Origin: Acetomicrobium hydrogeniformans
GTDB taxonomy: Bacteria > Synergistota > Synergistia > Synergistales > JAFGMB01
Direction of reading: 5' to 3'
DNA length: 64,000 nucleotides
NCBI GenBank assembly: GCA_016841745.1
Contig: JAENYO010000002.1
Coordinates: forward strand, 1-64,000
This document shows, piece by piece, positions 18,108-27,775 of this stretch. Position numbers and translations under genes: made by a program. The first letter of the stretch is position 1, and every line of letters begins with the position of its first letter. The notes under the pieces are model-generated. The model did no database searches, was not told the origin of the DNA, and saw only the letters and a program-made list of their open reading frames with translations.

Positions 18108-18160
18108 GTTCGCTACACCCTGGAACCGTATATTCTATACGGTTCCAGGGTGTAGCGAAC
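18108..18160. repeat. Perfect 25-bp inverted repeat between convergent genes
   Basis: Arms 18108-18132 (starting GTTCGCTACACCCTGG) and 18136-18160 are exact reverse complements around a 3-nt loop. It lies 40 bp after the lyase stop and 8 bp before the end of the convergent PLP-enzyme gene. There is no U-tract on either strand, so it is not a standard terminator, although it would form a very stable hairpin in both transcripts. Confidence 0.85.
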
Positions 18161-18168
18161 GATCGTTT

Positions 18169-19572
18169 TCAGGAAGTCCCTGGTAACAAAGCATTTTTCC
18201 TATCTCTGCGTATCTCAAGAATCTCGTTATCAATCTCTGCGCATTTTGCTTGTTCCTTTTTCCACCAACCGGGGTCTTTCTGGGCTTCCAACCCGGCGTC
18301 ATCCATTCCGCATTCCTTTACCCAGTATGAGCGCTTGATTTCAAACCACCTCTGGCGGTTGAAACTGGTACCTTCCTGGATATGATTGGTTCCCTGGTTC
18401 TGGAAGATCTTTTCAAAAATCTTTGCTGCCTTGTTCATGGTCATTCTGCCTTCCCTTTCCTCCATTTCTTTCATGACCGAATGGTAGCGGTCTATGGAAT
18501 CGGTGCATATTGTCACTATGTTCGTTCCTTTGGGGAGTTTATAATGTTTTGCGGTCCTTATGGCTCCCAGGAGGTTGCAGACACCCGATATACCGAAGTT
18601 CTGGGCCATTTTTTCGACCTCTTCCATGGATATATTCTCTTCCCGGGTCATGTATCTTCTCCCAACAGGATCAGTAAGGAGCCTCAGTCCCTTTTTGCAG
18701 TCCTTGTCATCCATGCATATGACAGCATCCATGTTATGAACGTTGTGGATCCAGGTGACAATACCATCCCCGATGCCCTGTATGTCATGGTCTCCACTGC
18801 CATTGCTGTAAAGGGTAGGGCATTGGAAAGGTTCGAGGGCTACGATCCGGTTTTCAGAAAAGGTTTGTTTCACCCTGTCTCCCGCCGCAATGGTTCCTCC
18901 GGAACCAACGGCCGAGATGAAGGCTTCACAGCGGCCATTCCCGATACCTTGGGATTGAAGGTATTCCATGAGTTCCACGATGGTATTGCCTGTAACGGTG
19001 TAATGAAAGCGGTAGTTGGCCATGGAGATAAATTGGTTCATCACCGTCATTCCAGGTTGGGAACCCACTTTTTTTGCCTCTTTGAACATTCCGGCGAGGC
19101 CTGAAGCCTTTATGTATCTTCCTCCATAACTGGTAATGCGGTCAAAACGTTCCCTGCTCACTGAAGAGGGGAGGATCACCAGAGGATCGTATCCCATTCT
19201 CACTGCCACCCAGGCGCCGCCAATGCCGAAGTTACCGGTTGACGGATAGACAAGGGTATCCCTTGAAGGATGTATGGTACCTTCCAGCTGTTTTTCCATT
19301 GTAACTGAGTATGTGGAACCCACCTTGTGGGATCCGGTGGGAAAGTTTTTTCCCAATAGAACTATGATGTTGGCATCCACTCCCGTTATCTGAGGGGGGA
19401 TGATCATGAAATAAGGGATATTGTCGCCATCTTTCCAGGTTATGTTGAAAAGGGCCTCCGGGATAAGGCTGTCCCTCTCTTTTATCGTCTTTTTTCGAAG
19501 GGCAGGATCCATCTTTTCGGGATGGAGCATTTCTTCATAAGTTGGTCCGAGGACCATTTGTGTATAAGACAT
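18169..19572 (-). CDS. PLP-dependent fold-type II enzyme, cysteine synthase/CBS-like
   Basis: 467 aa. The PLP lysine is Lys83 in PTGSHKVGSTYS; PSTGNFGIGGAW is the phosphate/substrate loop and SAVGSGGTIAAGDRVK the PLP phosphate-binding loop, all as in cysteine synthase-like enzymes. The protein is about 130 residues longer than CysK, with an extra C-terminal helical region (about 370-467) that is not a CBS pair. Its own transcript starts with a cysteine-rich leader peptide (19725-19856), which strongly suggests that it makes or uses cysteine. It is not TrpB: the TrpB signatures are absent. AAAGGAG precedes the start. Confidence 0.8.
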   Translation of the reverse strand: MSYTQMVLGPTYEEMLHPEKMDPALRKKTIKERDSLIPEALFNITWKDGDNIPYFMIIPPQITGVDANIIVLLGKNFPTGSHKVGSTYSVTMEKQLEGTIHPSRDTLVYPSTGNFGIGGAWVAVRMGYDPLVILPSSVSRERFDRITSYGGRYIKASGLAGMFKEAKKVGSQPGMTVMNQFISMANYRFHYTVTGNTIVELMEYLQSQGIGNGRCEAFISAVGSGGTIAAGDRVKQTFSENRIVALEPFQCPTLYSNGSGDHDIQGIGDGIVTWIHNVHNMDAVICMDDKDCKKGLRLLTDPVGRRYMTREENISMEEVEKMAQNFGISGVCNLLGAIRTAKHYKLPKGTNIVTICTDSIDRYHSVMKEMEEREGRMTMNKAAKIFEKIFQNQGTNHIQEGTSFNRQRWFEIKRSYWVKECGMDDAGLEAQKDPGWWKKEQAKCAEIDNEILEIRRDRKNALLPGTS

Positions 19573-19601
19573 GATATTTCTCCTTTCTTTTCATAACAGG
19601 C

Positions 19602-19629
19602 ATAAAAGGGTTGCCGTCATGAGGCAACC
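19602..19629 (-). terminator. Candidate attenuator hairpin before the PLP-enzyme gene
   Basis: On the transcribed strand GGUUGCC (19629-19623) pairs with GGCAACC (19615-19609) around UCAUGAC, followed by CUUUUAU. The U-tract is short. The 5' arm can alternatively pair with GGUAACC (19760-19754) inside the upstream leader peptide gene, giving a candidate antiterminator. Confidence 0.6.
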
Positions 19630-19724
19630 GGTATTTGGATAGCACCAGTTACAAGCTCCGTGATAGAACGAAGCTTCTGTAAATAGCAGTTGGAATAATT
19701 AATTGGGGTTTTACGCCGATGGGA

Positions 19725-19856
19725 TCAGAAAGAAAGGGTGTTCACACAAGAAGGGTTACCAACGGCGATGCCGATACATCGACAGGATATGGTTGTCTCG
19801 CGACAACAACAGGATGTGAAATTCCTTTTTCTTGTGGTTTTTTTGATATCCCTCAT
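19725..19856 (-). CDS. Cysteine-rich leader peptide (putative Cys attenuator)
   Basis: A 43-codon frame begins 25 nt after the expected transcription start, with the strong site GAGGAGGTGG 4-5 nt before ATG. It encodes MRDIKKTTRKRNFTS-CCC-RETTISCRC and further to IGIAVGNPSCVNTLSF: six Cys, three of them consecutive (codons 16-18, all TGT). The TGT run is embedded in a GTTGTC-GCGA-GACAAC hairpin. Runs of Cys codons in a short leader before a cysteine-synthase-like gene follow the logic of amino-acid attenuators: stalling at Cys codons when Cys-tRNA is short would let the downstream antiterminator form. The function is inferred, not known. Confidence 0.75.
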   Translation of the reverse strand: MRDIKKTTRKRNFTSCCCRETTISCRCIGIAVGNPSCVNTLSF

Positions 19857-19888
19857 TGGTCCACCTCCTCTAGTAGTTTAATAATTTA

Positions 19889-19916
19889 ATTATATATATT
19901 TATTTAAAAATGGCAA
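19889..19916 (-). promoter_or_regulatory. Promoter of the Cys leader / PLP-enzyme transcript
   Basis: On the minus strand TTGCCA (19916-19911), a 16-bp A+T-rich spacer and TATAAT (19894-19889). Transcription would start near 19882, leaving about 25 nt before the leader peptide start codon. Confidence 0.7.
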
Positions 19917-27554: not shown

Positions 27555-27572
27555 GAGAAAAAAATACACGAA

Positions 27573-27614
27573 AGGCCTTGAAGTGAATCCCAATGGGATC
27601 CGCCTCCAAGGCCT
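27573..27614 (-). promoter_or_regulatory. trp leader antiterminator/pause hairpin
   Basis: AGGCCTTG (27614-27607) pairs with CAAGGCCT (27580-27573), with an inner GGATCCC/GGGATTC pairing. The AGGCC repeats can also pair with the 5' arm of the terminator, so this region can supply the alternative fold of a classic attenuator. Confidence 0.65.
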
Positions 27615-27662
27615 CACGCTAATCTATTATACTTGCGATCGATCAGGCTCTTGGCGGCAGAC

Positions 27663-27710
27663 TTAGAAGATCTGCCACCACCAACTCCGGGTTGTGAAAG
27701 CTTTACTCAT
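27663..27710 (-). CDS. trpL: trp operon leader peptide
   Basis: 15 codons, MSKAFTTRSWWWQIF, with three consecutive Trp codons (TGG), preceded by AGGAG. It sits between a consensus promoter and the attenuator hairpins, upstream of trpE. Ribosome stalling at the Trp codons when charged tRNA-Trp is low should favour the antiterminator. Confidence 0.93.
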   Translation of the reverse strand: MSKAFTTRSWWWQIF

Positions 27711-27745
27711 GATCGCACGCTCCTGTTGATAAGTTATTGGCGGAA

Positions 27746-27775
27746 ATTATATCTTGCTTCCAGTGGGCTTGTCAA
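27746..27775 (-). promoter_or_regulatory. trp operon promoter
   Basis: On the minus strand TTGACA (27775-27770), 18-bp spacer, TATAAT (27751-27746): both boxes are consensus. Transcription should start about 30 nt before trpL. Confidence 0.88.

Follow-up and report, generated by a model that had tools for sequence, protein, structure and literature searches.

Does the short cysteine-rich ORF that precedes a PLP enzyme gene in this DNA sense cysteine and, if so, at which level would it control the gene? For the window, i.e., the whole 64,000-nt stretch that was analyzed, a preliminary description had applied the logic of trp/his attenuation to cysteine. Our answer, held with moderate confidence, is that the leader is a ribosome-mediated, cysteine-responsive uORF attenuator for the PLP enzyme gene, most likely acting on translation initiation. 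As in trp/his attenuators, ribosome stalling at the sensed amino acid's codons would be combined with alternative RNA folds, and the Cys-codon leader itself is conserved in a second genome (G001). However, trp/his attenuators have a terminator and an antiterminator, neither of which is supported at the window leader, and this part of the proposal does not carry over to G001.

All elements lie on the minus strand: a near-consensus promoter comes first, then the SD sequence GAGGAGG, a 43-codon ORF, 152 nt and the ATG of the enzyme gene at 19572. The promoter TTGCCA-16-TATAAT (19916..19889) matches 11 of 12 consensus positions and is the sole sigma-70-like match on this strand within the leader region. 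It predicts a 5′ leader of 26 nt that includes the SD (19864..19870), which could alternatively pair with codons 35–37 (19754-19748). The ORF, MRDIKKTTRKRNFTSCCCRETTISCRCIGIAVGNPSCVNTLSF (19725..19856), has Cys at codons 16, 17, 18, 25, 27, and 37. All six are UGU, and the uninterrupted run at codons 16–18 (UGUUGUUGU, 19803..19811) is the expected stall site. The promoter, the strong ribosome site and the 43-codon frame, whose six Cys codons include three in a row, are thus as the preliminary description had them, and the presence of a Cys-codon leader ahead of the enzyme gene is confirmed. SD-preceded ATG frames of 10–60 codons that contain CCC occur once in the window vs. 0.017 times per dinucleotide-shuffled window. 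The locus has what ribosome-mediated attenuators have in general, namely a translatable SD-led ORF with clustered codons of one amino acid. The peptide has no Pfam match, and no Rfam family, riboswitches and T-boxes included, reaches its gathering threshold in the window or in L046 (the corresponding locus of the second genome, G001; JAFGMB010000236.1, a Synergistales MAG).

G001, the only other genome of the window's family that was compared, represents a different genus. Its leader peptide is 79% identical (E 1.6e-17), likewise comprises 43 codons and keeps five of the six Cys codons, including the triplet. The −35 and −10 elements are retained at the same spacing and the leader-to-gene distance is 284 nt in both; the gene upstream of the promoter is not the same, and the DNA above the promoter has diverged. 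Between the two species, codons 1–33 show a dN of 0.06 and a dS of 0.66 (7 of the 11 changed codons are synonymous), and the dN of the enzyme gene is higher (0.11, with a dS of 0.91). This substitution pattern indicates that codons 1–33 evolve as a protein under coding selection. Codons 34–40, Cys37 among them, are mostly changed. Because coding selection acts on codons 1–33 and G001 keeps promoter, distance, frame length and all but one of the Cys codons, a Cys-sensing leader peptide is well supported, and we regard it as probable. The preliminary description had suggested that Cys-rich frames be sought upstream of enzyme homologs; the conserved frame in G001 answers to this, and no Cys leader precedes the more distant homologs of other lineages (50–59% identical). 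Among the 183 genomes of the order, the leader peptide was found convincingly in the window and G001 only. Other matches (E ≥ 6e-4) were rejected as chance, and those inspected sit in unrelated contexts.

If the leader senses cysteine, its output might be exerted on transcription. In this reading, which the preliminary description had drawn, a hairpin with a U-run (HP3, GGUUGCC..GGCAACC, 19609..19629) would be an intrinsic terminator and GGUAACC at codons 33–35 (19760..19754) the antiterminator. The 7-bp stem does exist (−10.6 kcal/mol) and is followed by CUUUU, but its tail, CUUUUAUG, has just four U. In G001 the stem is weaker (−7.2 kcal/mol, one pair showing a compensatory change and another being broken) and the tail, CUCUGAUG, lacks a U-run. 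Similarly, GGUAACC can pair with GGUUGCC in the window through six standard pairs and one G-U, but three of the seven pairs are lost in G001. Between leader and enzyme gene, no intrinsic terminator of the trp/his type and no conserved antiterminator competing with one was thus found in the comparison of window and G001, and setting both alternative folds side by side, as had been proposed, speaks against the original drawing. Moreover, the U-run falls in a conserved long-range helix (S2, see below), of which it forms the 3′ arm.

Two observations made elsewhere speak for this reading: cysE leaders of the order carry intrinsic terminators, and the trp operon of the window has its own trp-type attenuator. 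The latter, called textbook in the preliminary description, is real: trpL (MSKAFTTRSWWWQIF at 27710; element 27560-27775, minus strand) has a 12/12 promoter and a terminator stem of −29 kcal/mol followed, after a short gap, by U5. This stem is far stronger than HP3, and together the terminators of the cysE leaders (mostly with U4–U8 tails) and trpL span −17 to −31 kcal/mol vs. −10.6 kcal/mol for HP3. We therefore consider classical transcription attenuation, with the terminator and antiterminator as drawn, unlikely.

Given a leader, a translational expression platform is mildly favored. Helices were compared pair by pair between the window and G001, i.e., in two sequences only. Two hairpins lie within the ORF: P0 (GUUGUC GCGA GACAAC, 19792..19807) has a GNRA loop and Cys codons in its 5′ arm and shows two one-sided changes in G001, and P1 (UGUCGA UGUA UCGGCA, 19769..19784) spans Cys25 to Cys27 with one one-sided change. 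At the ORF end, the anti-SD CCUUUCUUU (19729..19737) forms helix S1 with 19590-19582, all nine pairs being present in both species; according to folding and pair comparison, the SD region of the enzyme gene (AAAGAAAGGAG, 19580..19590) is sequestered in S1. The adjoining helix S2 joins the post-stop segment GGCGUAAAA (19709..19717), paired in the two-sequence consensus fold, to UUUUAUGCC (19599..19607), the U-run mentioned above. In G001, one S2 pair is broken, one shows a compensatory change and one a one-sided change. Between these arms lies hairpin HP2 (19653..19676; one compensatory change, two one-sided changes and one broken pair). The alternative, anti-sequestor hairpin P2 pairs CGCCGUUGG at codons 30–33 (19759..19767) with CCAUCGGCG just past the leader stop (19714..19722), which overlaps the 5′ arm of S2; all eight pairs are identical in G001. 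No pair is broken between the species in S1, P0, P1, or P2, and S1 and P2 are invariant. The consensus fold contains S1/S2 and has a z of about −5.9 against column shuffles; the single-sequence folds reach −3.7 (window) and −2.4 (G001). For the window alone, the complementarity between anti-SD and SD does not stand out: 13% of shuffles match it, and it ranks about in the middle of 26 genes.

On the strength of these two sequences, S1/S2 and the alternative P2 hairpin suggest translational attenuation. By default, the leader end and the post-stop segment would pair with the SD region of the enzyme gene (S1, S2) and keep the gene off. When Cys-tRNA is short, a ribosome translating the 43-codon leader would pause at the UGU codons 16–18, then at 25 and 27. 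A ribosome held there would let codons 30–33 pair with the post-stop segment, and P2 would then break S2, trap the anti-SD in its loop and free the SD, turning the gene on. Folding with the ribosome placed at given codons makes the G001 leader behave as such a translational switch: the SD is paired in the free RNA (0.87), and with a ribosome at codons 16–18 or 25, P2 reaches 0.82–0.88 and SD pairing falls to ≤0.07. At equilibrium, the window leader does not switch, as a ribosome stalled at codons 16–27 leaves S1 at about 0.9. Here, P2 lies above the sequestered state by 1.4 kcal/mol with the ribosome at the Cys triplet, 5.4 kcal/mol near codon 24 and 10.2 kcal/mol with no ribosome. Since the equilibrium fold keeps S1 and P2 is less stable, a switch in the window would need co-transcriptional trapping. 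With the ribosome upstream, the nascent leader of both species folds best into P2.

Cys-triplet leaders also occur upstream of cysE (serine acetyltransferase) elsewhere in the order. Short SD-led ORFs ending ..CCCRW.. precede cysE-cysK in G009, G007, and G024. We counted CCC leaders within 450 nt upstream of cysE by family (f2–f10) and found them at all loci of f4 (6/6), f6 (4/4), f7 (3/3), f8 (2/2), f9 (6/6), and f10 (2/2), at part of the loci of f5 (20/37) and f3 (5/30), and at none in f2 (0/2), where the leaders read CICRW in place of CCC. Canonical-type cysE loci (>180 bits) have a CCC leader in 48 of 57 cases vs. 0 of 35 divergent CysE loci (<170 bits), a bit-score split chosen after the pattern was visible. 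Most f5 leaders start 4–8 nt past a TANAAT −10-like box (L097, L101, L103, L137, L140, L142, L146) and thus are apparently leaderless, as in mycobacteria.

In an alignment of 21 cysE leader sequences from seven families (A4), hairpins 1:2 and 3:4 contain 19 cells changed on both sides, a value that none of 500 shuffles attains and that collapses when the helices are slid; the alternative helix 2:3 has 14 such cells (0/500 shuffles). Helix 1:2 of the consensus fold reaches into the Cys codons, and a terminator-like hairpin (−17 to −31 kcal/mol, U4–U8) precedes cysE in 18 of the 21 sequences. An antiterminator 4:5 beats shuffles in f3, is borderline in f4 and f10 and fails in the others, and is not claimed. 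Loci such as L065, L067, L068, and L084 unite Cys-triplet leaders, the covarying 1:2, 2:3, and 3:4 helices and usually a strong terminator. None of the cysE leaders scanned matches Rfam. As they carry compensatory base changes, an RNA family could be built from them and tested.

The window leader and the cysE leaders come from the same taxonomic order and share the UGUUGUUGU core and the Cys codons in a 5′ arm. However, the cysE leaders have 16–20 codons instead of 43, mostly with CCCRW or CCCRQ in the SD-led cases, and differ in their 1:2/2:3/3:4 helices, their usually strong terminator and the gene downstream. A covariance model (R1) recovers the cysE leader elements in f2–f4 and f6–f10, and weakly in f5; it has no match in the window or L046 at E ≤ 5 and none in G001 or the genome of the window (G000). 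Hence, the window leader lies outside the cysE-leader RNA family, and the Cys-triplet logic is common to both. The poly-Cys leaders that lie ahead of cysE in most of the order's other families count for an attenuator at the window locus; against it count the comparison of two sequences only, the putative relation of the enzyme to cysteine and the lack of a leader before its 50–59% identical homologs. G033 carries an additional, closely similar Cys leader, MARLSVRENCCCRWIVN, that lies away from cysE (L167, G033:C4:169634-169718).

Instead of a Cys-tRNA shortage being read by the ribosome, the nascent peptide might itself sense cysteine, as a TnaC-like arrest peptide. The peptide is indeed conserved above the level of the enzyme (dN 0.06 vs. 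0.11), including its Cys-free basic N-terminus KTTRKRNF, but this is seen in two genomes, the codons are constrained also by RNA structure inside the ORF, and Cys triplets are the common feature of otherwise differing leaders in the phylum, as codon sensing predicts. An arrest peptide thus appears quite unlikely. It is very unlikely that the ORF encodes a small Cys-rich protein that binds metal or thiols, is transcribed together with the enzyme and has no regulatory role. The conserved CCC-x6-CxC arrangement and purifying selection speak for such a protein, but codons 34–40 (including Cys37) are mostly changed, no Pfam family matches, the ORF sits between the promoter and the enzyme gene where alternative RNA folds are conserved, and short CCC leaders are numerous ahead of cysE.

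A ribosome-mediated Cys attenuator has counterparts in other phyla. Mycobacterial polycysteine short ORFs (Canestrari et al., 2020; cited in PMC13236596, ref. 47, and PMC9094748), which PMC13236596 describes as translation attenuation, are likewise short upstream ORFs with consecutive Cys codons and cysteine-related genes downstream. According to these citing papers, they lack a 5′ leader and are found in front of cys biosynthesis genes, whereas the window leader has an SD, a predicted 26-nt 5′ leader, 43 codons and another enzyme downstream, and does not share the leaderless start. The uORFC-8-2 motif, proposed upstream of cysS in Rhodobacterales (PMC8632094), resembles it in being a uORF whose first stem holds tandem Cys codons (positions 14-15), but has an intrinsic terminator with a U-run, a cysS target and another phylum as its host; the window has no Rfam match. 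Cys leader peptides predicted in Actinobacteria also have Cys-codon runs and no obvious terminator, but there the run is close to the stop codon and cys/cbs operons follow (PMC1262725). In a survey of structured RNAs that covers Thermovirga lienii, a synergistete, the main text makes no mention of cysteine (PMC6429828). Our search of freely accessible main texts found no published Cys-codon leader from Synergistota, in agreement with the preliminary description, which knew of no Cys attenuator in this phylum. Our data add a phylum in which cysteine-sensing attenuators appear common: of the canonical-type cysE loci examined, most have a Cys-triplet leader in front, either SD-led or leaderless.

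The gene downstream of the leader (18169..19572, minus strand) encodes a 467-aa fold-type II PLP enzyme (PALP) that is a distant relative of cysteine synthases (Pfam PF00291, TIGR01136, PDB CysK). Among profiles and PDB entries, its nearest likeness is to cysteine synthases (CysK), yet it is about 470 aa long. The term cysteine-synthase-like used for it earlier is apt for a distant resemblance, but the score against TIGR01136 falls far below the cut-off (122 vs. 344 bits). Family models and solved structures that might name its reaction gave distant cysteine synthase matches only. Orthologs are 80% identical in G001, 59% in f7 and 50–57% in Clostridium and other lineages; paralogs occur across the order at 36–39% identity. 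A recognizable cysE is present in 129 of the 183 genomes of the order and absent from the window's family (G000, G001), where weak hexapeptide-repeat-like matches are all that was found. A second CysK-like protein elsewhere in the window's genome scores better (260 bits). As recognizable cysE is lacking and a better CysK-like protein is present, a role of the enzyme in cysteine synthesis is only putative. In a family that lacks recognizable cysE, the Cys leader is in turn a marker that points to a place for this uncharacterized enzyme in cysteine metabolism. It would be a distinctly speculative extension that, in a lineage without a recognizable CysE route, the leader controls a cysteine-handling PLP enzyme via SD sequestration with the conserved peptide as part of the sensor.

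Some further observations concern the enzyme gene and its homologs. No T-box or riboswitch lies ahead of the clostridial homologs. Homologs from Clostridium and other Bacillota (L048, L052, L054, L056) adjoin carbamoyltransferase, peptidase, and permease genes, which, judged by eye, look like an anaerobic purine-degradation cluster. The two 59% identical f7 orthologs (L003:1501-2871 and L004:1501-2877) have a common in-frame TAG near window residue 315, past which the frame goes on; pyrrolysine was rejected as the reason, as no PylS scored above its cut-off. Finally, a near-perfect palindrome of about 53 nt (18108-18160) lies between the enzyme gene and a convergent methylisocitrate-lyase-like gene and is perhaps a bidirectional terminator.
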